From an uncultured Bacteroidia bacterium (GTDB lineage Bacteria; Bacteroidota; Bacteroidia; Bacteroidales; UBA932): DNA of 64,000 nucleotides. Location of the stretch: assembly GCA_902781705.1 (NCBI GenBank), contig CACZKE010000001.1, positions 1 through 64,000 on the forward strand, given 5' to 3'. Within the stretch, counting starts at the first letter, position 1. The number at the start of each line of letters is the position of its first letter. Position numbers and translations under genes: made by a program. The notes under the pieces were generated by a model. The model saw only the letters and a program-made list of their open reading frames with translations, did not search any database and was not told the DNA's origin. This document shows, piece after piece, positions 28,450 through 64,000 of this stretch.

Positions 28450-28454
28450 AATGC

Positions 28455-30197: not shown

Positions 30198-30216
30198 TGA
30201 TTCTATCTTTAATTGT

Positions 30217-30861: not shown

Positions 30862-30865
30862 GCCT

Positions 30866-31468
30866 TTACCCGAACAGGATCTTCTTCGTCGCAGGCCGGA
30901 GGTAACCGCCGATGAGGTCCTTGAAGGTCTCGTCGGTCAGGCTCACGAAATAGCCACCGTCCTTGGGGCCGATCTTGAATCCGCCCGTGACTTTCTTGGA
31001 GAAGGTGGCTTCCACGCCCTTGCCGATGATCTTGCCGAGTTCGCTCTTCACGAACGGCTCCAGGCCGGCCTTGAGGGATTCGGGCAGGACGAGGGCGAGG
31101 TCCGCCGGCTCTTCGGCGGAGAACTTCTGCGCCACGGCGGTGATGATTCCCTTGACATATTCCTCGCTGGTGAGGGCCTTCTCGACGGCCGTGTCGGCCA
31201 TCTTGGTGACGATGAGGTTCTCGATGTCGGAACGGGTGGCCTGGACGGACTGTCCGGCGGCCATTTTCACGTCGCCTTCCACCTTAACCTTGTAGTCGTC
31301 GGCTTCCTTGCGGGCCCTTGCGAGGATGGCCTCAGCCTCCTCCCGGGCTTTTTTTACGATCTCTTCCGCTTCGGAGAGCGCCTTCTGGAGAACGGCTTCC
31401 CCTTCCTGTTTTCCCTTCGCGAGGCCTTCGTCATAGAGCCTCTGGGTGAGTTCCTGGAGTTTGTCCAT
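30866..31468 (-). CDS. atpE: V-type ATPase subunit E
   Basis: 200 residues. The N-terminal ~70 residues form a long charged coiled coil (EEIVKKAREEAEAILARAR); the C-terminal domain contains LPESLKAGLEPFVK and GGFKIGPKDGGYFVSLTDE. It belongs to the peripheral stator stalk. First gene of the operon, with a strong promoter at 31543-31512. Confidence 0.92.
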   Translation of the reverse strand: MDKLQELTQRLYDEGLAKGKQEGEAVLQKALSEAEEIVKKAREEAEAILARARKEADDYKVKVEGDVKMAAGQSVQATRSDIENLIVTKMADTAVEKALTSEEYVKGIITAVAQKFSAEEPADLALVLPESLKAGLEPFVKSELGKIIGKGVEATFSKKVTGGFKIGPKDGGYFVSLTDETFKDLIGGYLRPATKKILFG

Positions 31469-39705: not shown

Positions 39706-40911
<1,206 letters not shown>

Positions 40912-47658: not shown

Positions 47659-48549
47659 CTATTCCTTCCGCTTTCCCTGGGTGAATTTCCGGTATTCCAC
47701 CGGGGTCATGCCGGTGAGGCGGCGGAAGGCGGTGAAGAAGTAATCCTCGTTCTCGTAGCCCATTTCGTACGCGACCTGCTTGACGGGTCGCGTACTGTTC
47801 GTCAGGGTCTCCTTGACCTTGCCCATCTTCACTTCCTGGATGTACTTGGCGGGGGAGAAGCCGGTGTATTCCTTGAAGATGCGTCGGAAATTGGAATAGC
47901 CCATGCACAGCTGCTGGGCCACGTCTTCGGGCGTGATGGTGCGGAACTGCTCGGAGATGAGGATCTTGGCGCGGTTGATCTGGTCGGCGACTTCGGAGAA
48001 GGCCTCGTTGCGGCCGTAGAACCAGGCCAGGGAGAGCAGGTGGGCAACCAGGCCGCCCAGGCGCTGCTGGAAACCGGACATCTGCTGCGTGGCGGTCCGG
48101 ATGGCCTCTTTATAGAGATCGACGATGTCGCTCCTGAGGCCGGCGTGCCAGACCGGGCGGTTCAGGGAGAAAAAGCCGTTCCGGACCCAGGAGTTCATCT
48201 GTCCGCCCTTGAATCCGATCCAGTACTCTTTCCAGCCTGTCTCGGGATCCGGACGGTACGTATGCCATTCGCCCGGGAACAGCAGGAAGAAACTGCCCTG
48301 CCGCACCTGGACCGGATGGGACTGCGTGGCGCTGCGGAACGTTCCCTGTCCCTGCGTGATGTAAAGCAGCTGGTATTCGTCCAGGACGCGCCCGCGTTTC
48401 TCGGAAAACAGATAGCGGGAGGGATGGTTGGACGGGGGATAGGGCTCACCGGGGCCCACTTCCTGGAACCCGACCGAATTCACGGCCGTGCCCCACAGCA
48501 GGTCATTGGGACCCGCGACCAGGTACTTCAGATGGATGGCGTCGTTCAT
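47659..48549 (-). CDS. AraC-family transcriptional regulator
   Basis: 296 residues. A cupin-like sensor domain (RQGSFFLLFPGEWHTYRPDPE, about 75-110) is followed by a dimerising helical segment and two C-terminal HTH motifs (TPEDVAQQLCMGYSNFRRIFKEY and KQVAYEMGYENEDYFFTAFRRLTG). It probably senses a sugar ligand in the cytoplasm. It starts 1 nt after the stop of the hybrid sensor gene, so the two regulators share a transcript. Confidence 0.92.
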   Translation of the reverse strand: MNDAIHLKYLVAGPNDLLWGTAVNSVGFQEVGPGEPYPPSNHPSRYLFSEKRGRVLDEYQLLYITQGQGTFRSATQSHPVQVRQGSFFLLFPGEWHTYRPDPETGWKEYWIGFKGGQMNSWVRNGFFSLNRPVWHAGLRSDIVDLYKEAIRTATQQMSGFQQRLGGLVAHLLSLAWFYGRNEAFSEVADQINRAKILISEQFRTITPEDVAQQLCMGYSNFRRIFKEYTGFSPAKYIQEVKMGKVKETLTNSTRPVKQVAYEMGYENEDYFFTAFRRLTGMTPVEYRKFTQGKRKE

Positions 48550-48550
48550 G

Positions 48551-51500
48551 TCAGTTCGTCTTGTTCACTTGGCTCGGCGGATAGCCGAAATGGTTCTTGA
48601 ATTCACGGGAGAAGGTGGAAGGGGAGGAGGCGCCCACTTTGTCGGCCACCTCGCTCACCGTCCACGATCCGGAGAGGAGCAGCTGCCGGGCGATGTTCAT
48701 GCGGTAGGCCGTGGAATAGGCCTTCGGCGTCTCGCCGGTGAGGGCCTTGACCTTGGCATACAGGCTGCTGTAACTCATGCACAGGGCGCCGGCCATGTCG
48801 TTGACATCGGCCTCCACGTTGTCCAGGTTGGCATCCAGATAGGCATGGACCTTCTCCAGAAACTCTTTTTCGGAAGGGGAAAGTCGGACTTCTTCCGTCT
48901 TTTCCGGGTCCTTCAGGTCGGCCGAGGTCAGGTTCCGGATCTTGTCCTGCAGGATTTTCCGGTTCCGCAGGAGACTTTCCACGGCGGCCCTCAGGTAATC
49001 CGGGTCGAAGGGTTTCGGGATGTAGGCGTCGGCCCCGGCCTTCATGCCTTCGATGCTGCTTTCGGCATCGGCCTTGGCGGTGAGGAGGATGACGGGGATG
49101 TGGTTCCAGTCCGGGTGGGCTTTGATATCCGCGCAGAGGCTGTAGCCGGTCTTTCCCGGCATGATGACATCGCTCAGGACGAGGTCCGGCAGGCTCAAGG
49201 CGAGATTGTCCTCCGCTTCCAGGCCGTCGGAGGCGAGGATGACGTTGTAGCGGTCGCTGAAGAGATCCTTCAGGAACAGCCGCAGTTCGGTGGTGTCTTC
49301 GGCAATCAGGAGGGTCTGCTCCTTGGACAGGTCGCCGGTCCCGGCAAAGATGTCCTGCGGCGCGGAGGCGACGGCTTCGGCTTTGTATTCCGGGTAGGAG
49401 GCGGCATCGGCCGGGAAGGTGAATCGGAAGATGGATTCGGCAGGCTGGTTGGGCTCGTAGGTGATCGCTCCGTGATGCAGCCTGGCCAGTTCCTGGGCAT
49501 AGTTCAGGCCGATGCCGGAGCCCACGGTACCGGACTGTTCCGCGCCGAGCCGCTCGAACCGGTCGAAAATCTTTCCTCGCTTCTCTTCCGGGATGCCGAT
49601 GCCGTCGTCGATGACGGAAATGATGACCTGCCCGTCCTCCCGCTGGAGCGAAATCCGGATGTGTCCGCCTTCCGGGGTGTATTTCACGGCGTTGCTCACG
49701 AGGTTGCCGAAAACCTTGGAGACCTTCTCCGTATCGAAGATTCCGATGCAAGTCTCCGGGAAGTCGGTGGACAGTTCCTGCTCCTTCTCGGAAGCGGCAA
49801 AGCGGAACATCCCCGCCATGGACTGAAGGAGGGACGTGAGGTCGTTTTCCCGGAGCGTGAGTGTTTCCCCGGTATTCCGCCCAGCGCTGGAAAGCAGCTG
49901 CTCGGAAAGGGACTGCAGGTGCTCCGCACTACGGCCGATTAGCCCGACGAGACTCTTCTCATGCTCCGGCAATTCGCTCTTTTCCAGCTCCTTGGCCGGT
50001 CCGACAATCATGGTGAGCGGCGTCCGGAACTCATGCGAAATGTTGGTCAGGAAGTCGATATGCTGCTGGCCCATCTCTTCGCGCTGCTGGGCGAGCGCCA
50101 GGCGGTCCTTCTGCATGCGGTACCGGATGAAGAAGCCGATGCCGCCCAGGATCAGGACCGTTCCCAGCAGCCAGTACAGGGCGATGGCCCAGGGCGCGGC
50201 CCAGGGTGCGGGTCGGATGGTGACGGGAAGGTCGATGACGGAGTGGCTCCAGTTCCCGTTCTGTACGCGTACGCGTGCCTGGAAAGAATAATGTCCCGCC
50301 GGGAGTTTCGTATAGACGGCGTGCGGAGCGAGGACCCCGGAATGCCAGTCCGCCTCGTATCCTTCCAGCCGCCAGGCGTAATTCAGAAGGGATCCGGAAT
50401 CATAGTCGATTCCGGCGAACCGGAAGCTGAGGGTATTCTCGTCGTAGGGAAGGACCAGTCTTTCCGTCCGGGCAGGGACGGCCGCGTCGTTTACCTCAAT
50501 GGATTCCATCTTCAAGGGCGTATCCTTCTCCGCTGGCCGGAATTCGTCCGGATCCACGATGGTCAGGCCTCCGGATCCGCCGAAATAGACCTTTCCGTCC
50601 AGGCCGACGGCACCGGAGAGCAGGTCGTAGAAGCGTCCTTCCCGGTAGCGGCTGTCCTGCATGGCCGTCAGGGTCTTGGACCAGGGGTCGTACCGGGAGA
50701 GGTGGGTGGCCGTGGATATCCAGATATAGCCGTCCCGGTCCTGCACCAGGGATTTGATGTCGCCGACCATGACCCCGGAAGCTGTGTCAAAGCGTTCCAC
50801 CGTCCCGTTCGCCTCGTCGAAATGGATAAGCCCGTCGTTGTAAGTGCCCATCCAGAATGTGCCGTCGCGGGCCATCATCAGGGCACTGACGTTCTTGAAC
50901 CCTTCGCCGAACGGGACGATGGACCCGTCCGGCTTCACTTCCAGCAGACCGTCCCGGAGACCGACGATGAAGATGCGCCCGTCGCCCGGGGAGGGCATGA
51001 TATAGGAAAAGGGAATGTCCGTAGGGTAGCGTTCTTTCGTCCCGTCCGCCTGCACTCTCCGGAGTTCGGTGGAACCGGACAGCCAGAGGGTCCCGTTCCT
51101 TCCGGGGGAGATGGAGAAGGTGCCGTCATCGGTCCGGACGGAATTCATCAGATGGGGAACGCCTTTATGAGGAAGGTAATTGGCGACCGTGTTCCCGTCG
51201 AACAGGACGACGAGCCGTCCTTCCCTTCCCATGAAGATCCCGCCGCAGGAATGTTCCGTGTCCTGCCAGACAATCCTTTCCTCCTGGGGAGAGAAACAGC
51301 TGAAGCGGTCCCCGACCCGCAGCCAGAGGTATCCTTCCGGATCCGGGACCAGGTGGCTGATCCGGCGGTCGTCCCCGGCGATTTCCACGGAACGGAACGG
51401 CTGCCGGGCGGCTATGTAGGTCCATCCCTGCCTTGCGTCCGCTTCCCAAAGGCCGCCGTCCCGGTCCGTGAACCGGACGGGAGCCTCTGAAACCTTTCCC

Positions 51501-51976
51501 GGAAGCGTAAAGGCCTCCGCCGGATCGTATCCCAGGACTTCCAGGGAATTCTTGTCCAGGTCGAACCTTCCGGACTTGGAGGTAAAGGCAATCCGGGCAC
51601 TGTCGGTTTCGACAATCTGTTCCACCGGGTCGAAGACGGTCGTGTTCAGGTGGTGGAACCGGCCGTCCCGATACCAGTTGAGGCCGCATTCGGTGCCGAT
51701 CCAGAGCGTTCCCTGTCCGTCCTGGCACAGGGAGAGGATATTGTCGTTGTTCAGGGAGCCTTCCTGTCCGGAAGCATAGAAAACCGTATAGGTGCTCCCG
51801 TTATAGCGGTTGAGGCCCCGGTCCGTACCGAACCAGATGTACCCGTCCGCATCCTGGGCGATGGCTTTCACGCGGGGATTGGACAGCGTCCGTGCGGAAA
51901 CGCCCTCCTGCGCCCCGGCCGGAGCGGCGGTGGAACAAAGAAAAAGGATTACTGTCAAAAATAGAAGTTTCCGCAT
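48551..51976 (-). CDS. Hybrid two-component system sensor/regulator (HTCS)
   Basis: 1141 residues from the ATG at 51976; an upstream TTG at 51985 is less likely. A signal peptide precedes two seven-bladed propeller-type sensor regions built from Reg_prop repeats (DGYIWFGTDRGLNRYNG, QGTLWIGTECGLNWY). A Y_Y_Y domain (residues ~495-590), one transmembrane helix (~602-622) and HisKA with His648 (NISHEFRTP) follow. HATPase_c (NLVSNAVKYTP, GIGIPEEK, GSGIGL), a receiver with Asp936 (LSDVIMPG) and an AraC-type DNA-binding domain complete the chain. A periplasmic oligosaccharide switches on the facing SusCD operon. Confidence 0.95.
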   Translation of the reverse strand: MRKLLFLTVILFLCSTAAPAGAQEGVSARTLSNPRVKAIAQDADGYIWFGTDRGLNRYNGSTYTVFYASGQEGSLNNDNILSLCQDGQGTLWIGTECGLNWYRDGRFHHLNTTVFDPVEQIVETDSARIAFTSKSGRFDLDKNSLEVLGYDPAEAFTLPGKVSEAPVRFTDRDGGLWEADARQGWTYIAARQPFRSVEIAGDDRRISHLVPDPEGYLWLRVGDRFSCFSPQEERIVWQDTEHSCGGIFMGREGRLVVLFDGNTVANYLPHKGVPHLMNSVRTDDGTFSISPGRNGTLWLSGSTELRRVQADGTKERYPTDIPFSYIMPSPGDGRIFIVGLRDGLLEVKPDGSIVPFGEGFKNVSALMMARDGTFWMGTYNDGLIHFDEANGTVERFDTASGVMVGDIKSLVQDRDGYIWISTATHLSRYDPWSKTLTAMQDSRYREGRFYDLLSGAVGLDGKVYFGGSGGLTIVDPDEFRPAEKDTPLKMESIEVNDAAVPARTERLVLPYDENTLSFRFAGIDYDSGSLLNYAWRLEGYEADWHSGVLAPHAVYTKLPAGHYSFQARVRVQNGNWSHSVIDLPVTIRPAPWAAPWAIALYWLLGTVLILGGIGFFIRYRMQKDRLALAQQREEMGQQHIDFLTNISHEFRTPLTMIVGPAKELEKSELPEHEKSLVGLIGRSAEHLQSLSEQLLSSAGRNTGETLTLRENDLTSLLQSMAGMFRFAASEKEQELSTDFPETCIGIFDTEKVSKVFGNLVSNAVKYTPEGGHIRISLQREDGQVIISVIDDGIGIPEEKRGKIFDRFERLGAEQSGTVGSGIGLNYAQELARLHHGAITYEPNQPAESIFRFTFPADAASYPEYKAEAVASAPQDIFAGTGDLSKEQTLLIAEDTTELRLFLKDLFSDRYNVILASDGLEAEDNLALSLPDLVLSDVIMPGKTGYSLCADIKAHPDWNHIPVILLTAKADAESSIEGMKAGADAYIPKPFDPDYLRAAVESLLRNRKILQDKIRNLTSADLKDPEKTEEVRLSPSEKEFLEKVHAYLDANLDNVEADVNDMAGALCMSYSSLYAKVKALTGETPKAYSTAYRMNIARQLLLSGSWTVSEVADKVGASSPSTFSREFKNHFGYPPSQVNKTN

Positions 51977-51997
51977 GATTGGCAATGGTCAGTGCTG

Positions 51998-52132: not shown

Positions 52133-55100
52133 ATGAAAAAGAAACTCTTTCTCCTGGCTGTCGCTCTGATGAGCGCTGTCGCCGCCCTGGCACAGCCGCG
52201 TCAGATTACCGGCAAGGTGGCGGACGCCAACGGCGAGCCGCTTATCGGCGTAGGAATCATCGTCCGGGGTACGACCACCGGTACGATGACGGATGTCGAC
52301 GGTAACTTCGCCCTGAACGTTCCCGCCGACGCCATCCTCGAAATCTCTTCCATCGGCTATGTTTCCCAGGCCATCCCCGTGGGGAACAAGACGACCTTCG
52401 ACATCGTCCTCGAAGAGGATGCCGAACTCATCGAAGGAACCGTGGTCATCGGCTACGGTACCGTCAAGCGCGAGAACTTTACCGGATCCGTCGCGACGGT
52501 CAAGGTCGGGGACTCTCCGATCTCGAACGCTCCCAAGACGAACCCGATGGATCTGCTGCGCGGCATGACCACCGGCGTGCAGATCTCCCAGTCCGGTGTC
52601 GCCGGTTCCGATCCCAGCATGCAGGTCCGCGGCCAGAAGTCCATCTCCGGCGGCAGCATGCCGCTCATCATCCTGGACGGCGTGATCTTCAAGGGCAGCC
52701 TGATGGACATCGACCCCGACACGATTGAGTCCATGAGCGTGATGAAGGATGCGACATCCCTCGCCGCCTACGGCTCCCAGGCCGCGAACGGCGCCATCAT
52801 GATCACGACCAAGAAGGGCCAGGTGGGAAAGCCCATGATTTCCTTCAAGGGTTCCGTCGCCCTCGTGGAGCAGAACTTTACCCCGGAACTCCGGGATGGC
52901 TACGGCTATATCGAACTCTTCAACGCGCGTAACGGCCGCAAGTTGGACGACACTTCCTTCCTGGGCCCGGTGGAAAAGGAGAACTACGACAAGGGCCAGT
53001 ACACGGACTGGATCGACTATGTGAGCCAGACCGGCGTCCGCCAGGACTACTCCCTGAACGTCTCCGGTGCCACCGAGAACATGAACTACCTGTTCGGCGC
53101 CTCCTTCAATGACAACAAGAACTTCATCAAGGGGAACGAGTTTGTCCGCGAGACCATCACCGGCCGCATCAATACGACCATCACCAAGAACATCAAGTTC
53201 GGCATCAACTTCAACTATGCCGAGACCCAGAACGACGGCGTCCGTCCGAACTACACGGCGGTCCGCATCACTCCCTGGGGTTCTCCCACCCTCTCCGACG
53301 GCGTGACCATGCGCAAGTACGTGGACGGCAAGGAAGCCGACCCGATCAACCCCCTCTGGAACGTCTATAACGGCCGTGATGTCGTGAACCGCACGACCAA
53401 CGCCACCATCGGCGGCACCCTGGACGTCAACATCCCCTGGGTGAAGGGCCTGTCCTACCGCCTGACCGGCAACTACAACAAGCGCCTGGGCTATTCCTAC
53501 AGCTTTACGCACGAGACCAACTTCGTGAACATGGCCGACGGCGAGGCCGCCTACACGACGGAAGCCTTCGATACACACCTGAACGAGGCGGGTGGATTCA
53601 TCAGCAATACGATGAACCTGTCCTACGTCATCGACAACATCCTCTCTTACACCCGTGAGTTCGGGAAGCACTATGTGAATGCCTCCCTGGTGTACACGCG
53701 CGACGCCAACCGCATCGAGAGCAATGGCGAGTCCGGCGAGGATTTCTCCGGCCTCGGGAACACCTCCCTCGGCATCTTCCGCCTCGCGGACGCCGGCGTG
53801 CACAACATCACCGCCCCGACCTATTCCTTGCATACGGACGTGGGTTATCTCGCCCGCGTGATCTACTCCTATAACAACAAGTACCACTTCAACGCTTCCT
53901 TCCGCCGGGACGGGTCCTCCGTGTTCGGATCCGAGCACAAGTGGGGTAACTTCCCGGCCGTGGGTATCGCGTGGACCATTTCCGACGAATCCTTCATGGC
54001 CGGCACCAGGAATTGGCTGGACTACCTCAAACTCAAGGCCTCCTGGGGTAAGAACGGCAACCAGTCCCTCTCTCCCTACGGCACCCTGTCCCGCATGAGC
54101 ATGGGTAAGTCCGGCGGCTTCACCTACTTCTTCGGCAACAGCCCGGTCTATGGCCAGACTCTCGCCACCATCGGCAACCCGAATCTCGGCTGGGAAACCA
54201 CCACTTCCTTCAACGCCGGTTTCGAGGCGGACCTTCTGAACCGTCGCATCCACTGGGAACTGGACGGCTACAAGTCCATCACCACGGACCAGATTTTCAA
54301 CCGCACCGTTCCCGTGATGGGCGCCGGAATCACCAGCCAGAGCGCGACCATGGGCCGCGTGGACAACTGGGGCGTCGAATCCACCCTCACCACCCAGAAC
54401 ATCCGGAAGCAGAACCTGAACTGGACGACCACTTTCAACTTCACGATCAACCGCAACAAGCTCGTCGAACTGTACGGTGACGGCGAGGACGACATCCCGA
54501 ACAACCTGTTCCTGGGCAAGTCCCTGGGTGCGGTCTACGGTTACCGCTGGGACGGTGTGGTGCAGACCACCGATACGGATTACATGGCCAAGAACGGCGC
54601 CCTCGCCGGTGATGCCAAGTATGCCGACCTGAACGGCGACGGGGTCATCACCCCGGATGACCGCGAAATCCTCGGTTACAACAAGGAGGCCTTCCGCCTG
54701 AGCATGAGCAACACCGTCACCTGGAAGGACTTCACCCTGTTCTTCCTCTTCAACGGGACGTTCTCCAGCAAGATGTACGGCCGCGCCGCCAACAACCTGG
54801 CCTACCTCTCCTACGAGAACATGCAGTACACCAACATGTTCAATCATCCGTACTGGACGGAGGAGAACAAGAGTAATGTGTATCCCCGTCCGGCCTACAA
54901 CGACGGCAAGTTCATGGCCCTGGATCCCTACGGCTTCGTCCGTCTCCAGGATCTGCAACTCTCCTACAACATGCGGTTCCCGTTCCTGCAGCGGATGGGT
55001 GTCAAGTCCGTGCAGGCCTATGTCTCCGGCCGCAACCTCTTCTTCATCGCTCCGGGCTGGAAGTTCAGCGATCCGGAAGTGAGGAACCCGCGCTCCCAGC

Positions 55101-55144
55101 AGCTCGCCAGGACTTATACCTTCGGTCTGAATGTCAGATTCTAA
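52133..55144 (+). CDS. SusC/RagA-family TonB-dependent outer-membrane transporter
   Basis: 1003 residues with signal peptide (ends SAVAALAQ), CarboxypepD_reg-like domain (ITGKVADANGEPLIGVGIIV), TonB-box-like GTVVIGYGTV, plug (LLRGMTTGVQISQ, MQVRGQKSISGGSMPLIILDGV, SMSVMKDATSLAAYGSQAANG) and barrel ending in the aromatic FGLNVRF. It imports the ligand of the HTCS-controlled locus. SusD follows within 14 bp. Confidence 0.97.
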   Translation: MKKKLFLLAVALMSAVAALAQPRQITGKVADANGEPLIGVGIIVRGTTTGTMTDVDGNFALNVPADAILEISSIGYVSQAIPVGNKTTFDIVLEEDAELIEGTVVIGYGTVKRENFTGSVATVKVGDSPISNAPKTNPMDLLRGMTTGVQISQSGVAGSDPSMQVRGQKSISGGSMPLIILDGVIFKGSLMDIDPDTIESMSVMKDATSLAAYGSQAANGAIMITTKKGQVGKPMISFKGSVALVEQNFTPELRDGYGYIELFNARNGRKLDDTSFLGPVEKENYDKGQYTDWIDYVSQTGVRQDYSLNVSGATENMNYLFGASFNDNKNFIKGNEFVRETITGRINTTITKNIKFGINFNYAETQNDGVRPNYTAVRITPWGSPTLSDGVTMRKYVDGKEADPINPLWNVYNGRDVVNRTTNATIGGTLDVNIPWVKGLSYRLTGNYNKRLGYSYSFTHETNFVNMADGEAAYTTEAFDTHLNEAGGFISNTMNLSYVIDNILSYTREFGKHYVNASLVYTRDANRIESNGESGEDFSGLGNTSLGIFRLADAGVHNITAPTYSLHTDVGYLARVIYSYNNKYHFNASFRRDGSSVFGSEHKWGNFPAVGIAWTISDESFMAGTRNWLDYLKLKASWGKNGNQSLSPYGTLSRMSMGKSGGFTYFFGNSPVYGQTLATIGNPNLGWETTTSFNAGFEADLLNRRIHWELDGYKSITTDQIFNRTVPVMGAGITSQSATMGRVDNWGVESTLTTQNIRKQNLNWTTTFNFTINRNKLVELYGDGEDDIPNNLFLGKSLGAVYGYRWDGVVQTTDTDYMAKNGALAGDAKYADLNGDGVITPDDREILGYNKEAFRLSMSNTVTWKDFTLFFLFNGTFSSKMYGRAANNLAYLSYENMQYTNMFNHPYWTEENKSNVYPRPAYNDGKFMALDPYGFVRLQDLQLSYNMRFPFLQRMGVKSVQAYVSGRNLFFIAPGWKFSDPEVRNPRSQQLARTYTFGLNVRF

Positions 55145-55157
55145 AAGCTACTCCGTC

Positions 55158-56981
55158 ATGAAAAAGTATATTTACATCCTCGTTTCCCTCGCCGCCCTCG
55201 TTTCTCTCGCCGGCTGCCAGAAAGACAGCGAATACCTCCAGGAGGATCCCAAGACCATCTTCACCGTGGACAACGCTTTCACCAAGAGTTCCCAGGTGGA
55301 CGCCCAGGTAGCCCGCATCTACTATGCGGCCTACAGCCTCTATGTCTGGATCGACGGAGACATCTTCGCCTCCTTCGGCGGCAGCCCCAGCTCCACGTTG
55401 CTGGGTTATGGCTCCGATACCATCGAAGGCAATGCCGCTGTCGCCAACGCCGGCGGCGCCTTCTCCCATTTCGACAACCTGGACGCCCTCAACGGCCGTT
55501 TCCTGAACCTGTGGAACGCCCTGTACCAGCTCATCAGCTATGCGAACCTCGCCGTGTACGGTGCCGAGCAGGTCGAGTGGCCTTCCGAGGCGGAAAAGAA
55601 CGACCTCGTTTCCCAGGCCAAGTTCTTCCTGGGGTGGGGCTATCTCCGTCTCGCGGAATGCTTCGGCTCCGTGCCGCTCGTGGAAGAGTTCAACCAGGAC
55701 CTCCGCTACGACTATGTCCGCACCCCGCGTTCCGAAGTGTATGCCTTCGCGATCAAGATGCTCTCCGAAGCCGCTGCCGGCCTTCCCGACTACCCGGCCG
55801 CCGATGGACGTATCGCCAAGGGTGCCGCCAATCACTTCCTCGCCGAGGCCTACATCGCCCAGGGCGTCGAAACCGGTGACAAGAGCAACTTTACGAGCGC
55901 CATCACCGCCGCCAACGCCACCATCGGCCTTCACCCGCTCATGACCCGGCGTTTCGGTGTCCGGGCCAACCCGGCCGACAAGGGTACCACCGGCATGTTC
56001 AACATCCCGAATTACGTGGCCGACGGTACGCCGTATTATGACCTGTTCCAGATTGGAAACTATGACCGCAGCGAGGGCAATACCGAGAGCCTCTGGGTGC
56101 TCCAGACCCCGACGTACGACCAGCAGTCCCGCGCCAACAGCGGCCAGAGCAACAACAGTATCGTCGGCTGCGCCCAGCCGTACCGCGACCTCGTCTGGAA
56201 GCCGGAGTACAAGGAAGGCGCCACGGGCCCCTGGTCCGCCGACTCCCGCATCGACATGCAGAAGTATCCGTTCGGTGCCGCCGGTCCGTATTGCGGTGGC
56301 GGTTCCTGGGGTATGTTCGGCAGCAACGACTATATTGATGAATATGTGTGGGAAGGCGATTTCGCTACCGACGACCGCAATTCCCAGCTGATCCTGATCG
56401 ACCCGGTGTGCATGGACGAAGGCCACAGCATGGCCGGCCAGATTGTGGACAAGAATATGCTCACCGAGCCCTGGCGCTACATGCGTGTCTCCGGCAAGGT
56501 GAACCTGCCCGACGCCTGGGGCTTCGATTCTCACTGTATCATCATGGGCCAGGGGCCGCAGGCTATGTTCGGCCGCGACGTCTATGCCGCCCGTTCCGCC
56601 GAGACCTATCTCCTTCTTGCCGAGGCCCAGCTTCGCAATGGCAATGCCTCCGAGGCGGCCAAGGCCCTCAACGCGGTCCGTGCCCGTGCGAACTGCTCGA
56701 AGATGTACGATGCCGGTGAGGTTTCCATCGTCACAATCCTCGACGAGCGCGCCCGTGAACTCGCTTGGGAAGAGCATCGCTGGCCCACCCTTCTCCGTCT
56801 GGCGAAGGAAGGCGAGACGAACACCGTGATGCATGAACAGCTCCGCGCCCACGCCCAGTATGTCCATGACAATCCGGTCTTTCCGGGCACCGCTCCCAAG
56901 TGGTCCCTGTTCCCGATTCCGCTCACGGTCATCCAGCTCAACTCCGGAGCCGAGATGCCGCAGAACGACGGCTGGAAATAA
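55158..56981 (+). CDS. SusD/RagB-family surface ligand-binding lipoprotein
   Basis: 607 residues from the ATG at 55158; the frame to 55131 overlaps SusC. Lipobox LVSLAGC is followed by the N-terminal SusD region (DSEYLQEDPKTIFTVDNAF), helical repeats (QAKFFLGWGYLRLAECFGSVPLVEE), and the C-terminal signature (TILDERARELAWEEHRWPTLLRL). It binds the ligand at the surface and caps the SusC barrel. Confidence 0.96.
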   Translation: MKKYIYILVSLAALVSLAGCQKDSEYLQEDPKTIFTVDNAFTKSSQVDAQVARIYYAAYSLYVWIDGDIFASFGGSPSSTLLGYGSDTIEGNAAVANAGGAFSHFDNLDALNGRFLNLWNALYQLISYANLAVYGAEQVEWPSEAEKNDLVSQAKFFLGWGYLRLAECFGSVPLVEEFNQDLRYDYVRTPRSEVYAFAIKMLSEAAAGLPDYPAADGRIAKGAANHFLAEAYIAQGVETGDKSNFTSAITAANATIGLHPLMTRRFGVRANPADKGTTGMFNIPNYVADGTPYYDLFQIGNYDRSEGNTESLWVLQTPTYDQQSRANSGQSNNSIVGCAQPYRDLVWKPEYKEGATGPWSADSRIDMQKYPFGAAGPYCGGGSWGMFGSNDYIDEYVWEGDFATDDRNSQLILIDPVCMDEGHSMAGQIVDKNMLTEPWRYMRVSGKVNLPDAWGFDSHCIIMGQGPQAMFGRDVYAARSAETYLLLAEAQLRNGNASEAAKALNAVRARANCSKMYDAGEVSIVTILDERARELAWEEHRWPTLLRLAKEGETNTVMHEQLRAHAQYVHDNPVFPGTAPKWSLFPIPLTVIQLNSGAEMPQNDGWK

Positions 56982-57053: not shown

Positions 57054-60000
57054 ATGAATAGGAAAAGAGTCTTTGCCCTGATGATTTCCCTGTCTGTCCT
57101 TCTGCCCGGTATGGGACAGGAGCGCAGCCGCGGGTTGAACGATGACTGGAAGTTCGTGCGCGATTCGCTCGCGGGCGCCGAGGCGGTCCGCTATGACGAT
57201 TCGGCCTGGAAGACGGTGGACCTTCCCCACGACTTCAGCCTGGAGCCGCTCCCGGCAGGGGAGTACACCCTCGGACCCTTCTCCCGGGAGACCAAGGGCG
57301 GACGCTCGTTGGGCTACCTGCCCGGCGGCACCGGCTGGTACCGGAAGGCTTTCACCCTGGACAAGGCCGATGCCGGGAAGGCGGTTTCGCTGGTCTTCGA
57401 CGGCGCTTATATGCTGACGGACGTGTGGGTGAACGGCAAGCCGGCCGCCGCCCACAAGAACGGCTACACGCCTTTCGCGTTTGATATTACCGACCTGCTG
57501 GTTCCGGCCGGACAGGAAAACCTCCTGGCGGTCCGGGTTGTCAACTACGGCAAGAACAGCCGCTGGTACAGCGGTTCCGGCCTGTATCGGGACGTAGAGC
57601 TGGTCGTAACCGATCCGCTGCATATCGCCCAGTGGGGAACCTATGTGACGACGCCATCGGTCACGGCGGACAAGGCGACTGTCCATCTGGAAATAACCCT
57701 TGAGAATGCCCTCCGGAAGGCTTCCAAGGCGCAGTTGCAGGTTCGTTTGCTGGATGGAAAAGGTCGAGAAGCGGCCTTCGGAACCACCGCTGTGAAGGTG
57801 GCCGGCCAGACTTCGGCCGGTCTGGACCTGGAAGTGGAGAAGCCTTTGCTCTGGACGCCGGACGATCCGGCCCTCTATACGGCCGAAGTCCGCGTGCTTT
57901 CCAAGGGGAAGGAAACGGATCTCGTGAAAACGCGTTTCGGCATCCGTACCATTGAGGTGAATGCCCGGGAGGGTTTCAAGCTCAACGGCGAGCCGATGCT
58001 CCTAAGGGGCGGCTGCGTCCATCACGACAACGGCCTGCTCGGCGCCGAGGCCCACCGTACGGCGGAATACCGCCGCGTCCGCCAGCTCAAGGACGCCGGC
58101 TTCAACGCCGTGCGTTGCGCCCACAACCCGCCGTCCCGGCACTTCCTGGACGCTTGTGACGAGCTCGGCCTTCTGGTCATCGATGAATTCACCGACATGT
58201 GGGAGCAGCCCAAGAACGTGGACGACTATTCGCAGTTCTTCAAGGAGAACTGGGAGAAGGACCTGACTGACATGATGCTCCGCGACCGCAACCACCCGTC
58301 CGTGGTGATCTGGAGCATCGGCAACGAGATCCCCAACTGGAGCGTTGCGGACGCTTCCCGGATCGGCAAGATGCTCACGGCGAAGGTGCGGGAATTGGAT
58401 CCTACCCGTCCGGTTACGCAGGGTGTCACCAGCGCCTATATCCATATCGACTGGGACCATTCCGAAAAGACGTTCGAACACCTGGATATCGCCGGCTACA
58501 ATTATCTGACGCATTATGTCGAAGGGGATCACGCCAAATACCCGGAGCGGGTCATCATGGGCACGGAATCCTATCCCAACCAGGCATTCACGTACTGGAA
58601 GGACGTGGTGGAAAAGCCCTATGTGATCGGCGATTTCGTCTGGACGGCACTGGACCATCTCGGAGAGGTGGGCCTGGGCGGCGGACGTTACGTCCCCGCC
58701 GACCGTCCGCAGCGCGGCGGTCCGCAGTTCCAGACTTCCCGCGGCCCCGAAGAGGGGATGAATCCGGCGATGATGTGGCAGTTCCCGGACCGCCTGGGCC
58801 CGGAATTCCCGGCAACTTATACGAATTATTGCGGGGACATCGACCTCATCGGCGACAAGAAGCCGCAGGGCCGTTACCGCGATGTCCTGTGGGACATCAG
58901 TCCGCTGGAAATCCTGGTGCACGAGCCCATCCCTGCCGGCATGGTCGAGATGGTCGGTCTCTGGGGCTGGCCGCAGGAACAGGCCCGATGGTATTGGCCC
59001 GGACATGAAGGGGAGTCCTTCCAGGTCCGTGTGTTTACCAAGGCCCCGCAGGTGCGGCTGGAGGTGAATGGCGAGAGCGTGGGCGTACAGCGGACGAATG
59101 AAGAGTATATCGCGCTGTTCGAAGGCGTGACTTACCACCCGGGCAAACTCGTGGCCATCTCGCTGGACGCGGAGGGGAAGGAACTGGAAAGCCGCGTGCT
59201 GCGTACACCGGGTAAGCCGGCTTCCGTCCGACTGCTCCGGGAACGCTATAACCATGACCATGCACTGGTTTATCTGAAGGCGGAGGTCATCGACGATGCC
59301 GGCGTCGTTGTTCCGGACGTCTTCCCGCTGACCTTCGATATCCAGGGAGCGACCTTCGTGTCCGCCGGCAACGGCGCTCCCGATGACATGGTATCTTTCC
59401 GGTCCCGCACCCCGAAGACCTGGAACGGGGCGGCGATGCTCATCGTCCGTCCGTCCGGTCCGGATGCCCGGGTGGAAGTGACGGTCCATTCCGCCGGCCT
59501 GCAGGCTGGCAAGGCCGTCTTTGACGGTCAGGGAAAGGATATCCTGAAGAAGGACATCGGCGTGGGCCTCTGCTCGGTTATCGGCATCGGCGCCGACTTC
59601 GAGGACTCCGTGCGCCGCGTGGCTGAAACCGGGGCTACCTATGTGGAACTCAACAACTTCATGGGCGGCCGGATGTTCGGCCTCACGCCCGGAGAGGCCA
59701 AGGCCATCTTCGACAAATACGGCCTGCGGGTCATCTCCGACGTGACGATGGCCTCGGTCGTCGAGGATACACCGGAGTATCTGGACCGCTGGGAGCAGAT
59801 TTTCAAGGAGGACGCCGTCCTGGGCGTCAAGTACGTGTCCATGACCGCCAATCTGTGCTGGGGGACCGAGGCGCACGCGAAAACGTGCTGTGACGTGCTG
59901 AACAAGATCGGCGCCCTGGCGAAGAAATACGGCATCCAGTTCCTCTATCATCTCCACAACATCGAGTTCAATCCGATTCTGGATTCCGACTACCCGGGCC

Positions 60001-60488
60001 AGATCGTGGACTTCCTGCTGGAGAATACGGACCCTGAGCTGGTGAAGCTCGAGGACGACGTGTTCTGGGTGCAGATCGGGGGCCGCGACACCGTGGAGTT
60101 CCTGAAGAAACATGGCGACCGCATTCCGATGCTGCACGTCAAGGATTTCTACTTCATCGGAGAAGGCGACTATCTGGACTACAAGGCCGTTTTCGAGCAG
60201 TTCTACGCGAACGGCGGCACCGACTGGGTGCTGGAGATGGAGGACCCGATGACCCGCCAGCAGATGTACGACAAGGCCGAAGGCCACAACCGGATGAGCC
60301 AGACCCGCGAATCCGCAGGCGGCCCTGGCGTTCCCCGTCCCGGCTTTGGCGGTCCCCGCCCGCAACCTTCTCCCGAAGAGATCGCCGCCCGCATGCGCGC
60401 CCAGAACGCTTCTCGTCTGAAGTCGCTGAAAGATATCGAGACCAACATGCGTACGCTGGAGGGAATGCCTTTCATCCCATTCTTGTAA
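57054..60488 (+). CDS. GH2 glycosidase fused to a sugar isomerase/epimerase TIM barrel
   Basis: 1144 residues with a signal peptide (ends SVLLPGMGQE). Residues ~25-815 are GH2: sugar-binding domain (GYLPGGTGWYRKAF), Ig-like domain, barrel with acid/base Glu425 (WSIGNEIPNW) and nucleophile Glu505 (MGTESYPNQ), and C-terminal beta domains. Residues ~830-1075 are an AP_endonuc_2/sugar phosphate isomerase-epimerase barrel: DIGVGLCSV, HLHNIEFNP, LLENTDPELVKLEDDVFWVQ, PMLHVKDF and VLEMEDP, with probable metal ligands in LEDD, HVKD and LEMED. A Gly/Pro-rich tail follows. The two enzymes are in one frame without a stop. Both parts would be periplasmic or surface-exposed. Substrate unknown. Confidence 0.9.
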   Translation: MNRKRVFALMISLSVLLPGMGQERSRGLNDDWKFVRDSLAGAEAVRYDDSAWKTVDLPHDFSLEPLPAGEYTLGPFSRETKGGRSLGYLPGGTGWYRKAFTLDKADAGKAVSLVFDGAYMLTDVWVNGKPAAAHKNGYTPFAFDITDLLVPAGQENLLAVRVVNYGKNSRWYSGSGLYRDVELVVTDPLHIAQWGTYVTTPSVTADKATVHLEITLENALRKASKAQLQVRLLDGKGREAAFGTTAVKVAGQTSAGLDLEVEKPLLWTPDDPALYTAEVRVLSKGKETDLVKTRFGIRTIEVNAREGFKLNGEPMLLRGGCVHHDNGLLGAEAHRTAEYRRVRQLKDAGFNAVRCAHNPPSRHFLDACDELGLLVIDEFTDMWEQPKNVDDYSQFFKENWEKDLTDMMLRDRNHPSVVIWSIGNEIPNWSVADASRIGKMLTAKVRELDPTRPVTQGVTSAYIHIDWDHSEKTFEHLDIAGYNYLTHYVEGDHAKYPERVIMGTESYPNQAFTYWKDVVEKPYVIGDFVWTALDHLGEVGLGGGRYVPADRPQRGGPQFQTSRGPEEGMNPAMMWQFPDRLGPEFPATYTNYCGDIDLIGDKKPQGRYRDVLWDISPLEILVHEPIPAGMVEMVGLWGWPQEQARWYWPGHEGESFQVRVFTKAPQVRLEVNGESVGVQRTNEEYIALFEGVTYHPGKLVAISLDAEGKELESRVLRTPGKPASVRLLRERYNHDHALVYLKAEVIDDAGVVVPDVFPLTFDIQGATFVSAGNGAPDDMVSFRSRTPKTWNGAAMLIVRPSGPDARVEVTVHSAGLQAGKAVFDGQGKDILKKDIGVGLCSVIGIGADFEDSVRRVAETGATYVELNNFMGGRMFGLTPGEAKAIFDKYGLRVISDVTMASVVEDTPEYLDRWEQIFKEDAVLGVKYVSMTANLCWGTEAHAKTCCDVLNKIGALAKKYGIQFLYHLHNIEFNPILDSDYPGQIVDFLLENTDPELVKLEDDVFWVQIGGRDTVEFLKKHGDRIPMLHVKDFYFIGEGDYLDYKAVFEQFYANGGTDWVLEMEDPMTRQQMYDKAEGHNRMSQTRESAGGPGVPRPGFGGPRPQPSPEEIAARMRAQNASRLKSLKDIETNMRTLEGMPFIPFL

Positions 60489-60509
60489 CAATACGACATT
60501 CATTTCCAT

Positions 60510-63500
60510 ATGAAAAGAACAGCAGTCCTTCTCTTCGCGACCCTTTGCTTGGCAGCTGCAGTTTCATCCTGCGCCGACAAGGGGGGCGCGGCCCGCAAAG
60601 TTTCCATTGACGAACTCCAGGCGGGTTTCCAGAACCCTCCGAAAGAATCCCGCGTCCGTGTCTGGTGGCACTGGATGGGGGATGATGTGACCGAGTCCGG
60701 AATCCGGGCCGACTTCGAGTGGTTCAAGCGGGTCGGCATCGCCGGTTTCCACCAGTTCAATCTCGGCGGCAGCCAGGGAGACGCCAAGTACATGAGTGAC
60801 GTCTGGAAGGACCGCCTGTACTTCGCCGCCCGGCTCGCCGATTCCCTCGACCTTGAAATGGGCGTCCCTTCCTGCGCCGGCTTCAGCGCCACGGCAGGCC
60901 CCTGGGTGAAGCCCGAGGAGGGCATGAAGAAGCTGGTCTGGCGCACCGTGGAAGTGAAGGGCGGCGACGTGGACGTCCAACTCCCTCCTTCCTTCACCAA
61001 GGTCGGCGCTTTCCAGAACGGCGGTCCTGCCGGCCGCAGTTATGATCCGAACGCTCCCGAAACCGGAGGAGAGATCGCGGTCCTGGCCGTGAAGCTTCCC
61101 GAGGGAGCCGTCTCTCCGTTGGATGCGAAAGTGACGGCCAGCGGCGGTGATTTCACCCTGGAGATGCTGACGGACAACGACGTCACCAACGGCGCCCTCC
61201 TGCCTCCGGGCAAAGACGGCTTCGCTTGGATCCAATATGAGTTCCCCGAGGCGGTGACCGTCCGTTCCTTGAGCATCGTCGGCGCCGCGGGCGGCGGCGG
61301 TTTCCCGGGCATGGGTGGCGGCGGACCCGCCGCGAATGCCCTCGAGTGCAGCCAGGACGGCCAGACCTGGACCCGCGTCTGCGACGTCCGGGGCGGTGGT
61401 GCCGCCCAGGCGACGATGAGCGTCCCGGAAACGACGGCGAAGTTCTTCCGTCTGACCGTCCGGAACCCGCAGCCCCGTCCCATGCGTCCGGCCGGTTCGA
61501 ACCTGGGCTTCGGCGACGGCGCCCCGATGGCCAGGCCTGCCCCCGCTCCGGTCGGTACGCGGATTTCCGAGTTTGTCGTCTGGCCCTCCAGCCGGATCAA
61601 CCGCGCGGAGGACAAGGCTGGCTTCACGGCTGCGAACAACTTGATGGATTCCGCCACGAAGGCTTCCGCGGGCGAGGTGTTCCCGTCCCTCGACGACGTC
61701 GTCGACCTGACGGACAAGGTGGATGCTTCCGGCCGGCTTCGCTGGAACGCTCCCGAAGGCCGCTGGCGGATCTACCGCTTCGCCTGGTCCATCACCGGCG
61801 AGGTGAACCATCCGGCTTCCGACGAGGCCCTCGGCCTTGAAGTCGACAAGATGGATCCTGTGGCCTTCTCCCGCTTCATCCACGTTTATCTCGATACGTA
61901 CCGCGACGCCACGAAGGGGTTCCTGGGCGAAAAGGGCATCCGTTATCTCCTGACGGACAGCTTCGAGGCGGAGAACGAGAACTGGACGCCTGCGATGCTG
62001 GAGAGTTTCCGCCGCCTGCGCGGCTATGACATGAAGGCCTGGATGCCCGTCCTGACCGGCGAAATCATCGGTTCCGCCGACGAGAGCGAGCGTTTCCTCC
62101 ATGACTGGCGTGCCACGATCGGCGACCTGATCGCCGATAGTTATGCCCAGTTGACCGACATCATCCGCAAGGATTACGGCATGGTCGGCGGCTATTATGA
62201 GTCCCACGAAAGCGGTCGCGCCTACGTCGTGGACGGCATGGACGTCAAGCGGACGTCCAGCGTTCCGATGGGCGCGATGTGGGTCGAATCCCCTTGGCTC
62301 CGGAGGGGACCGGACGGCCGGTTCGACCGCCGGGGACATGAAGCCGACCTCCGGGAATCCGCTTCCGTCGCCCACATCTACGGGCAGAACTACGTCGCGG
62401 CGGAATCCATGACCACCTGGGGCGACCAGCTCCAGTACCAGTATGCTCCGGAAGACCTCAAGGAAACGGCCGATCAGGAGCTGGCGAACGGCGTCAACCG
62501 CTTCTACGTCCATCTCAGCGCCCACCAGCCGCGCGAGACCGTGCCGGGCATCGGCATGGGCAACATCATCGGCCAGTGGTTCAACCGCCACGAAACCTGG
62601 GCGGAAATGGCCGGCGCCTGGGTGGACTACATCTCCCGCACCAGCTACCTTCTCTCGTCCGGTCTCAATGTGGCCGACGTGCTCTATTACTACGGCGAGG
62701 ATTCCAATGTGACGGCCCTGTTCGGACGCGGCAGCGGGGTTCCTGCCGGCTACCAGTGGGACTACTGCAATCCGACGGCCCTCAAGGACGAGATGGTCGC
62801 CACGAAGGACGGCCGTATCCTCGCCAAGACGGGCAAGACGGAGTACAGCCTCCTCTGGATGGACCGGAACGTCGATTACATGTCGATGGACGTGCTCCGC
62901 AAGATCGCGTCGCTGGTCCGGGACGGCGTGCAGCTGGGTGGCGTCCGTCCGAAGCATGCCGCTTCCCTCAACGACGATCCGGAGGAATTCGATGCGCTCG
63001 TGAAGGACATCTGGGATACCGGCCGGGCCAACGTCCACGAGTCCAACGACATGCTCGCCGTCCTTCAGGAAATCGGCATCCGTCCCGACGTGGACATCGA
63101 CGACAGTTTCCGCTTTCTCCACCGTGACTGCGGGGATGCGCAGGTCTATTGGATCAACAAGCCCCTCTCCGAAGGTGGTGACGCGACCCTTTCGTTCCGC
63201 GTTTCCGGCCTGAAGCCGTCCGTCTGGCATGCCGAGACCGGGAAGATGGAGGAGGTCTCCTACCGCGTGGTCGGGGACCGTACGGAAGTCGACCTGCACC
63301 TCGTACCGAATGACGCGGTCTTCGTCGTCTTCTCCGGCAAGGGCGAGGCGTCCCATACGGTCGCCAGCCCGGTCCAGCGCGAAGTCCTGACGATTGCCAC
63401 GCCTTGGACGGTGAAGTTCCAGGAGAACCGCGGCGCTCCCGCCGAGGCCGTTTTCCCGGAGCTGAAATCGCTCTCCGAGTCGGACGTCTTCGGCATCAAA

Positions 63501-63860
63501 TACTTCTCCGGCGTCGCGACTTACAGCAACACGCTTTCCGCCTCCAAGCTGGAAGGTCGTGCGATCCTCGATCTCGGCAAGGTCAAGAACATCGCCGAGG
63601 TCTACGTCAACGGCAAATACTGCGGTACGGCCTGGAAGACTCCTTGGACGGTCGATGTGACGGATGCGTTGAAGGAAGGGGACAACACCCTGGAAATCAA
63701 GGTCGCGGACCTCTGGATCAACCGGCTCGTCGGCGACAACCAGCCCGACGCCCCGGAGCGGATCTGCACGACCCCGGGTGTCCAGTCCATCTATCCGGCG
63801 GACTATCCGCTCAAGGAATCCGGCCTGATCGGCCCGGTCCGGCTTATAGAAAACAAGTAA
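60510..63860 (+). CDS. GH106-like alpha-L-rhamnosidase lipoprotein
   Basis: 1116 residues with a lipoprotein signal (lipobox AAVSSC). GH106 hallmarks are FQNPPKESRVRVWWHWMGD, GIRADFEWFKRVGIAGFHQF, GPWVKPEEGMKKLVW, YLLTDSFEAENENWT, YYESHESGRAYVVDG and VHLSAHQPRE, plus the C-terminal jelly roll (VYVNGKYCGTAWKTPW). It differs from the paralogue at 44373 by Gly- and Pro-rich insertions (about residues 252-275 and 315-345). Probably anchored in the outer membrane. It lies 21 bp downstream of the GH2-isomerase gene in the SusCD operon, pointing to a rhamnose-containing substrate. Confidence 0.88.
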   Translation: MKRTAVLLFATLCLAAAVSSCADKGGAARKVSIDELQAGFQNPPKESRVRVWWHWMGDDVTESGIRADFEWFKRVGIAGFHQFNLGGSQGDAKYMSDVWKDRLYFAARLADSLDLEMGVPSCAGFSATAGPWVKPEEGMKKLVWRTVEVKGGDVDVQLPPSFTKVGAFQNGGPAGRSYDPNAPETGGEIAVLAVKLPEGAVSPLDAKVTASGGDFTLEMLTDNDVTNGALLPPGKDGFAWIQYEFPEAVTVRSLSIVGAAGGGGFPGMGGGGPAANALECSQDGQTWTRVCDVRGGGAAQATMSVPETTAKFFRLTVRNPQPRPMRPAGSNLGFGDGAPMARPAPAPVGTRISEFVVWPSSRINRAEDKAGFTAANNLMDSATKASAGEVFPSLDDVVDLTDKVDASGRLRWNAPEGRWRIYRFAWSITGEVNHPASDEALGLEVDKMDPVAFSRFIHVYLDTYRDATKGFLGEKGIRYLLTDSFEAENENWTPAMLESFRRLRGYDMKAWMPVLTGEIIGSADESERFLHDWRATIGDLIADSYAQLTDIIRKDYGMVGGYYESHESGRAYVVDGMDVKRTSSVPMGAMWVESPWLRRGPDGRFDRRGHEADLRESASVAHIYGQNYVAAESMTTWGDQLQYQYAPEDLKETADQELANGVNRFYVHLSAHQPRETVPGIGMGNIIGQWFNRHETWAEMAGAWVDYISRTSYLLSSGLNVADVLYYYGEDSNVTALFGRGSGVPAGYQWDYCNPTALKDEMVATKDGRILAKTGKTEYSLLWMDRNVDYMSMDVLRKIASLVRDGVQLGGVRPKHAASLNDDPEEFDALVKDIWDTGRANVHESNDMLAVLQEIGIRPDVDIDDSFRFLHRDCGDAQVYWINKPLSEGGDATLSFRVSGLKPSVWHAETGKMEEVSYRVVGDRTEVDLHLVPNDAVFVVFSGKGEASHTVASPVQREVLTIATPWTVKFQENRGAPAEAVFPELKSLSESDVFGIKYFSGVATYSNTLSASKLEGRAILDLGKVKNIAEVYVNGKYCGTAWKTPWTVDVTDALKEGDNTLEIKVADLWINRLVGDNQPDAPERICTTPGVQSIYPADYPLKESGLIGPVRLIENK

Positions 63861-63869
63861 AACAAGAGT

Positions 63870-64000
63870 ATGCCAACGGATTCTTTCCCCCTGCTGAACA
63901 GCCCCATCCAACTCGGCCGCGTCGTTTTCCGGAACCGGATGTTCTCTGCGCCGATGGGCGCGACGGACATCACCGCCGACTGCTGTCCCGGACCCCGTGT
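63870..64000 (+). CDS. Old Yellow Enzyme-type NADH:flavin oxidoreductase, partial (runs off right edge)
   Basis: Only 43 codons are visible, from the ATG at 63870. The segment LLNSPIQLGRVVFRNRMFSAPMG is the classic beginning of the FMN-binding OYE barrel (P-I-x-x-G-x-x-x-x-N-R-x-x-x-A-P-M). Members reduce activated C=C bonds (enones) or act on dienoyl-CoA and steroid or flavonoid-type compounds. No signal peptide is present, so it is cytoplasmic. It follows the GH106 gene by 9 bp and so belongs to the same operon. Confidence 0.75.
   Translation, partial: MPTDSFPLLNSPIQLGRVVFRNRMFSAPMGATDITADCCPGPR

Follow-up and report, generated by a model that had tools for sequence, protein, structure and literature searches.

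The window analysed here, 64,000 nucleotides long (contig C1:1-64000), belongs to the 3.07 Mb genome of a Bacteroidales bacterium, probably of animal-gut origin. Its right end lies within an operon of 11 plus-strand genes (C1:52133-76554) that places an ene-reductase of the Old Yellow Enzyme (OYE) family in a rhamnosidase-bearing polysaccharide utilisation locus (PUL). To the right of the window the same contig, which reaches 272 kb, was read at 60001-120000. As a PUL variant, the system is conserved and partly recurrent, and it includes esterases and an enzyme of the 2-enoate-reductase class. Its first gene encodes a SusC-type TonB-dependent transporter (52133-55144; TIGR04056, 781 bits against a cut-off of 368), followed by a SusD-type surface lipoprotein (55131-56981; PF07980, PF14322), a glycoside hydrolase family 2 (GH2) enzyme with a signal-peptide-like start that is fused to a TIM-barrel AP_endonuc_2 domain (57054-60488; PF02836, PF02837, PF00703, PF01261), a GH106 alpha-L-rhamnosidase lipoprotein with a lipobox-like N terminus (60510-63860; PF17132, 835 bits) and the OYE of 649 residues (63870-65819; Oxidored_FMN 198 bits, Pyr_redox_2 91 bits), of which the window holds 63870-64000, the first 43 complete codons only. 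Then come a major facilitator superfamily (MFS) transporter, a metallo-beta-lactamase (MBL)-fold protein with a twin-arginine-like N-terminal start, a nucleoside-hydrolase-like Sde182 protein, an FMN_bind-carboxylesterase fusion, a PHB-type esterase (Esterase_PHB, 30.5 bits, cut-off 23) and another GH106, whose start was placed at the ATG at 73252, six bases past the scripted start. The signal peptide of the GH2 fusion, its absence from the OYE and the export of the FMN_bind-carboxylesterase were judged by eye.

The intergenic gaps are, in order, -14, 72, 21, 9, 2, 91, 1, 2 and 17 bases, then a short overlap. Divergent from the SusC gene, on the minus strand, lie a hybrid two-component system (HTCS) sensor/regulator (48551-51985; Reg_prop, Y_Y_Y, HisKA, HATPase_c, Response_reg, HTH_18) and an AraC-family regulator (47659-48549; PF12833, PF02311), a 66% homologue of which sits beside GH106 genes in the related genome G067 (L192). 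Adjacent SusC and SusD homologues with glycosidases and a linked HTCS are thus present, as in other PULs. Since the families score far over curated cut-offs and the module is kept in another genome, the gene set is beyond chance. The original prediction had placed SusC, SusD, the GH2 fusion, the GH106 lipoprotein and the OYE tightly spaced on one strand behind an HTCS/AraC control pair, all of which is confirmed, the regulators, SusC and SusD lying to the left of its start at 57054. Judged by spacing, the OYE belongs to the SusCD operon, as had been proposed, with a gap of 9 bases to the GH106 gene before it and of 2 bases to the MFS gene after it.

The OYE combines the Oxidored_FMN domain, a four-cysteine Fe-S motif and a C-terminal flavin/NAD domain in one chain, the architecture of the EnoR class. 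By this architecture it is assigned to the 2-enoate reductases, and enoate reduction is predicted. FldZ of Clostridium sporogenes, a member of the EnoR class, is described in PMC5882074 with the same OYE-like FMN barrel, four Fe-S cysteines and C-terminal FAD/NADH domain, and is stated there to reduce cinnamate and p-coumarate. Unlike FldZ, the OYE studied here has an invariant Trp181 and sits in a PUL, and the likeness is one of described architecture, not of sequence identity. A single scan with an alignment of three OYEs yielded 371 relatives, and the best 80 of the 371 were kept. These 80 loci include an own-species record (L099, Bacteroidales bacterium UBA3289) with a 100% identical OYE, and two of them are contigs also read as stretches of related genomes (L064 is G067:C63, L085 is G056:C112) and hence not independent of those stretches. 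The OYE was called in 74 of the 80 by a self-trained gene caller and placed in all 80 by six-frame searches. In the family alignment, cysteines C350, C353, C356 and C368 are present in 80/80 loci, H179 and W181 are invariant in all 79 loci with a letter at these positions, and H176 is found in 78 of 79. FadH has Tyr at the position of Trp181 in the alignment, as presumably does YqjM. The subfamily defined by His176, His179 and Trp181 spans Bacteroidota, Bacillota and Spirochaetota, including Blautia luti MSK.16.34. Assignments as BaiCD (394.6 bits, NCBIfam equivalog cut-off 825) and as the long form of the bilirubin reductase BilR (369.2 bits, cut-off 750) were rejected. The models closest to the partner MFS are those of carboxylate transporters, and it passes the one for the L-lactate transporter SfMCT (427.5 bits, cut-off 320), its substrate being a prediction only.

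The second unusual component is the FMN_bind-carboxylesterase, a lipoprotein-like chain that joins an FMN_bind domain to a type-B carboxylesterase. It carries the sequences SGATFTS, which we take to be a flavinylation-type motif, and GESAG, NSDEG and NHASE, presumably the esterase residues. The genome encodes one ApbE, so that an [S/T]GA[S/T]-like motif, export and ApbE, the marks of the ApbE-flavinylated class, occur together and covalent FMN is predicted; in one homologue (L042) AGAT replaces SGAT. Among the 30 loci with esterase matches and two doubtful loci that the check covered, a subset of all matches, the FMN_bind part was found only in the own genome, G067 and G025, the G025 copy being in pieces; genome RUG528 carries it as well. 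All three same-genus genomes with the fusion have the OYE, which occurs in 5 of 91 same-genus genomes; leaving out the own genome, the figures are two of two and 4/90, with a probability of 0.0015 that ignores kinship. In the AlphaFold2 model the FMN_bind part has a pLDDT below 50 for nearly all of its length. The protein shares with flavinylated exported proteins the FMN_bind domain with SGATFTS, the lipoprotein-like chain and a genomic ApbE, and differs from them in that FMN_bind is fused to a carboxylesterase and not to a reductase. The main text of an eLife survey of flavinylated proteins (PMC8238504) contains no word starting with 'esterase' or 'carboxylesterase', and no report of an FMN_bind-esterase was found in the open-access literature searched. 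Two other fusions were observed. In one (L044, 10011-12896) an Sde182-like part is joined to a carboxylesterase 64% like the own FMN_bind-esterase. In the other (L061, 97-1491) a PHB-type esterase forms an in-frame fusion with a PNPOx-type flavin split-barrel domain, the two being separate genes in the window genome; no second esterase-PNPOx fusion occurs among the matches listed for 150 relatives.

As had been suggested, the gene order was sought in other genomes, and it recurs in RUG528, a name in which 'RUG' presumably stands for rumen genomes. There (L063, L169) SusC (62%), SusD (49%), GH106 (68%), OYE (88%), the MFS, the FMN_bind-esterase (80%) and the MBL-fold protein (75%) are found, followed after the MBL gene by a reversed GH106 (73%), a PHB-type esterase (72%), GH78 (68%) and GH3 (75%). 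Partial versions occur more widely. One locus (L065) has an esterase, GH106, GH78, an aldehyde dehydrogenase, the OYE and the MFS, and in G084 the in-frame esterase-PNPOx fusion and a GH2 without TIM domain precede the OYE. In Bacillota, GH78, a carboxylesterase, a sugar-transporter-like gene and the OYE stand together by Pfam in L121 and by similarity in L129, L125 and L133, with GH78 on the other strand in the last two; Blautia luti (L141) has GH78, MBL, a ROK-like gene, OYE and GH1. Esterase genes also lie near the OYE in L087, L093 and L078, a BD-FAE being recognised by Pfam in L093. In L125, a GH78/carboxylesterase locus, a Tat-signal exported FAD_binding_2 plus FMN_bind reductase (12739-14859) lies two genes past the OYE, in this one of the 80 loci. 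A further recurrent order, from Spirochaetota and a Lachnospiraceae record (L122, L123, L124, L137, L134), comprises an altronate/galactarate dehydratase-like gene (by Pfam in L124 only), a permease-like gene, a PHB-type esterase and the OYE. In G067 (L058, 11287-14924), an acyl-CoA dehydrogenase, assigned by Pfam, and EtfAB-like genes, recognised by eye, are divergent from the OYE-MFS pair.

Within 6 kb of the OYE, a rhamnosidase was present in 9 of the 80 loci, a match to any of five esterase queries in 17 and a corrinoid-methyltransferase-type gene in 8; the same MFS stood at most 0.5 kb away in 10, and 32 loci had any of these four neighbour classes. Rhamnosidase matches fall from 19.8 per Mb within 2.5 kb to 8.6 at 7.5-10 kb (17.2 to 8.8 without the own species) and esterase matches from 42 to 17 over the same distances, and all MFS matches lie within 2.5 kb. 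The rhamnosidase background amounts to 75 family matches (53 GH78, 22 GH106) in the 26.6 Mb of nine genomes; this count includes fragments and three sub-cut-off matches, comes from profile searches whereas the per-distance rates come from single-sequence searches, and is biased upward because the nine genomes were picked for a rhamnosidase near the OYE. In seven of the nine loci the nearest rhamnosidase is at most 2 kb away, where 20% would be expected under an even spread over 10 kb (binomial 3e-4). On the OYE tree the linkage needs six changes, at least three of them forced by well-supported branches, and none of 500 shuffles was as low as six, indicating clustering too. Thus the rhamnosidase linkage arose repeatedly and was partly kept by descent.

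The surroundings of the operon were scanned together with it, 26 own-genome products in all, with Pfam. Upstream lie a CBM48-CE1-like esterase of ferulic-acid-esterase type (39706-40845, minus strand; PF00756, PF02922), which scores 289 bits to the solved structure 6rzn 'Ferulic acid esterase', as well as GH43, GH3, GH2 and a third GH106 (44373-47654, plus strand; PF17132, 931 bits) with a 73% homologue inside the RUG528 locus (L063). Downstream follow a convergent acyl-CoA ligase, an AraC regulator, GH94, a sigma factor, a PNPOx-like lipoprotein, GH78, GH3 and a reversed GH78. The acyl-CoA ligase was rejected as a defining partner, its 85% homologue lying near GH94 and Rha genes in G064, a genome with no OYE match at E <= 1e-60. 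Farther downstream, an L-rhamnose isomerase exceeds its cut-off (618 bits, 572), and two further proteins fall short of theirs, one rhamnulokinase-like (469 bits, 528) and one RhaT-like (351 bits, 369). In C1:93326-108298 (L010, L011) genes for 2-oxoacid dehydrogenase components of the E2 and E3 types, the E3 over its cut-off, come after these rhamnose isomerase/kinase-/RhaT-like genes, and farther along stands an aldolase/dehydrogenase-like gene under its cut-off; the stretch possibly encodes a rhamnose-to-acyl-CoA route. Elsewhere in the window, V-type ATPase genes occupy 24303-31468 on the minus strand, with subunits A and B passing NCBIfam cut-offs and the remainder known from gene calls only.

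The operon may be explained as a system for the utilisation of an acylated plant rhamnoside, from which a released enoic acid, most likely a hydroxycinnamate, would be reduced as an electron sink, an interpretation to which we give about an even chance. It builds directly on gene content, spacing, families, conserved motifs, co-occurrence and the recurrence of the module; the substrate, the direction of transport and the electron-sink role are what we infer from these. The SusCD pair would import the acylated rhamnoside. GH106 rhamnosidases in the periplasm or on the surface would then, together with the GH2 fusion and the two esterases, strip rhamnose, a second sugar and an acyl group. The freed acid, an alpha,beta-unsaturated carboxylate, would cross the inner membrane via the carboxylate-type MFS, be hydrogenated by the cytoplasmic OYE with re-oxidation of NADH, and leave the cell in reduced form, and the rhamnose would enter the rhamnose pathway encoded downstream. 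The esterases lay outside the view of the original prediction, and they make an acylated rhamnoside the likelier substrate. Four lines of support favour an enoate as the OYE substrate: the carboxylate-type MFS partner; the esterase and corrinoid-methyltransferase-type neighbour genes; the Bacteroidales OYE loci with BD-FAE- and CE1-like esterases (L078, L087, L093); and the exported FAD_binding_2/FMN_bind reductase of L125, fumarate-reductase-like enzymes being described as including fumarate, urocanate and methacrylate reductases (PMC8238504). None of them amounts to proof. The open-access literature searched yielded no description of an OYE within a PUL that has a rhamnosidase.

A caffeoyl-rhamnosyl-glucoside such as the phenylethanoid glycoside verbascoside is a concrete, if tentative, candidate substrate. 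According to PMC10812750, verbascoside consists of a phenylethanoid and caffeic acid joined to rhamnosyl-glucose, its metabolites include hydroxytyrosol and 3-hydroxyphenylpropionic acid, and verbascoside-bearing plantain enhanced rumen fermentation in vitro, perhaps as an energy source. Such a molecule would fit the gene set. More speculative, and in our view improbable, is the idea that the FMN_bind-esterase is a flavinylated periplasmic 'reductive esterase', in which ApbE-supplied covalent FMN would let the enzyme or a partner reduce the hydroxycinnamoyl group at the site of ester cleavage. The esterase-PNPOx fusion of G084 is consistent with this idea, in one genome only. If it held, deglycosylation would be coupled to extracytosolic respiration in addition to cytoplasmic reduction by the OYE.

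Several observations weigh against the utilisation of an acylated rhamnoside with enoate reduction. The OYE stays below the cut-offs of all 25 NCBIfam models shown, its invariant Trp181, Tyr in FadH, may signify unusual OYE chemistry, and caffeate is reported to be hardly reduced by FldZ (PMC5882074). The MFS, being over the cut-off for an L-lactate transporter, may instead carry out of the cell a product formed when rhamnose is broken down. All four neighbour classes were absent from 48 of the 80 loci, some of them short contigs, which suggests that the OYE also serves elsewhere, and of the eight corrinoid-type loci, L120 and L129 are based on a URO-D-like match alone. G044 has a related locus of SusCD, GH106 and an Sde182/carboxylesterase fusion in a genome with no OYE at E <= 1e-60. 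In G067 and G025 the set of GH106, PHB-type esterase and MBL has no adjoining OYE and the OYE-MFS genes are on other contigs, so that OYE and MFS form a separable pair. The last five operon genes could also have their own promoter, for which a -7-like TATCTTTG at 67112, within the 91-base gap between the MFS and MBL genes, is a candidate; L009 contains four octamers of this kind against 2.2 expected, which is no excess. The pattern TTTG-N17..23-TANNTTTG, which we take as the full Bacteroidota promoter, is strongly enriched in the window (seven matches, 0.18 expected), with no match at or past 36023 and hence none in the window part of the operon. Scans for sigma-70 promoters and terminators gave results near or below chance.

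The alternative that survives best, rather unlikely as it is, assumes a non-acyl aglycone, such as that of a flavonoid or steroid/triterpenoid rhamnoside; the OYE would then reduce an enone in this aglycone, and acetyl or malonyl groups would be what the esterases remove. Plants commonly contain rhamnosylated flavonoids and saponins. Scores of the OYE reach 395 bits for BaiCD and 408 bits for mycofactocin OYE 2, and PMC7862272 describes EnoR-class enzymes as acting in flavonoid catabolism too. Against this stand the BaiCD score, far from 825, and the partner MFS, nearest to carboxylate-transporter models, while the corrinoid methyltransferase-type neighbours in Bacillota would suit methoxylated aromatics. 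Phloretin hydrolase (PF18089) had no match in the genome nor in any control genome, so the control is uninformative, and chalcone isomerase was not searched for. Nothing points in particular to the flavonoid rutinoside that had originally been proposed as substrate.

Quite unlikely, too, is a PUL for pectin side chains (rhamnogalacturonan I or II, RG-I/RG-II, or feruloylated pectin), whose esterases would remove acetyl or feruloyl groups and whose OYE would detoxify ferulate, incidentally to sugar use. RG-I and RG-II are substrates of characterised Bacteroides GH106 enzymes, and the PULs of these enzymes share HTCS, SusCD and GH106 with the operon. In G067 the FMN_bind-esterase gene adjoins a GH28 gene on the same strand, and the esterase genes near the OYE in L087, L093 and L078 would fit as well. 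In contrast to the Bacteroides PULs, no polysaccharide lyase, GH28 or GH105 was found among the 26 products scanned, and esterases, OYE, MFS and MBL are present instead; downstream, GH94, GH78 and GH3 are followed by rhamnose-catabolism genes. The genes right of 64000, which the original prediction had suggested reading, include esterases, a transporter and another GH106, and the Gfo/Idh oxidoreductase and DUF1080 protein that it had named are missing from the operon.

That the OYE and MFS have nothing to do with the glycan, being a general ene-reductase and a lactate exporter that are in the operon by chance, is very unlikely. The MFS does exceed the L-lactate transporter cut-off, the pair stands elsewhere in G067 and G025, and 48/80 loci lack the other neighbours; the repeated linkage to rhamnosidases, with its forced changes on the OYE tree, and the conservation of the module in RUG528 argue against coincidence.

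The TIM domain of the GH2 fusion bears on the last alternative. Its nearest Foldseek structures overall are two uncharacterised Parabacteroides 'sugar phosphate isomerases' and AL1/BT1; the nearest characterised ones are the 3-keto-beta-glucopyranoside-1,2-lyases AL1 and BT1, then AtOGE (8tcd, 8tcr, 8tct, 8bvk). The lyase and AtOGE structures hold ranks 3 and 5-9 (E 4e-15 to 3e-9), with D-tagatose 3-epimerases next (3e-9); the domain model has a pLDDT of 79.6, TM scores are 0.54-0.66 by query length and the root-mean-square deviation is mostly 5 A or more. The ligand and catalytic residues of AtOGE used for comparison are those given in PMC10628242, and the set HxH, D, H, E has counterparts in YHLHN 965 (HxH at 966-968), EDDVFW 1000, LHVKD 1027 and LEMED 1060. 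The fused domain thus resembles AL1, BT1 and AtOGE in its TIM fold and in these residues, and differs in being joined to GH2, in 20-27% identity and in an operon without sugar oxidoreductase or DUF1080. The full-length fusion was found in the own genome and G067 only, among the matches listed for 150 relatives with four candidates scored per genome. In G067 the sister PUL (G067:C78, L168, 4620-15641) comprises SusC (79%), SusD (72%), GH2-TIM (64%), a PF06439 3-keto hydrolase and a GH43-CBM6; the own genome has seven PF06439 matches on five other contigs. Structure, residues and the PF06439 gene in G067 make it possible that one of the substrate's sugars undergoes 3-keto elimination, yet the operon has no oxidase for this, and a complete 3-keto pathway inside it was rejected, as neither a Gfo/Idh oxidoreductase nor DUF1080 is among the 11 products. 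The earlier guess at 3-keto chemistry therefore stands for the TIM domain and the sister PUL and falls for the operon as a pathway. A keto-sugar as OYE substrate, also proposed, is unlikely, since the OYE has no signal peptide, whereas the GH2-TIM fusion has one, and, in the flanks examined, a TIM-domain relative lies in only one of 79 non-own-species loci (L111). An entire 3-keto-glycoside system, in which the fusion performs the elimination and the OYE acts on a 2-hydroxy-3-keto-glycal or keto-sugar, is therefore the least probable alternative, the closeness to 8tcd, 8tcr, 8tct and AtOGE, the AtOGE-type residues and the adjoining PF06439 in G067 being opposed by the missing oxidoreductase, by the lack of TIM relatives in the flanks examined of RUG528 and, except for L111, of the Bacillota OYE loci, by the OYE that G084 keeps beside a GH2 without TIM domain, and by the difference in export.

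If the operon does serve the utilisation of an acylated rhamnoside with reduction of the released acid, a single PUL would draw carbon as well as an electron acceptor from the same plant metabolite, and the locus would provide a genetic handle on the hydrogenation of hydroxycinnamates by rumen and gut microbes. The presence of the OYE subfamily in the named strain Blautia luti MSK.16.34 makes the idea testable in culture.

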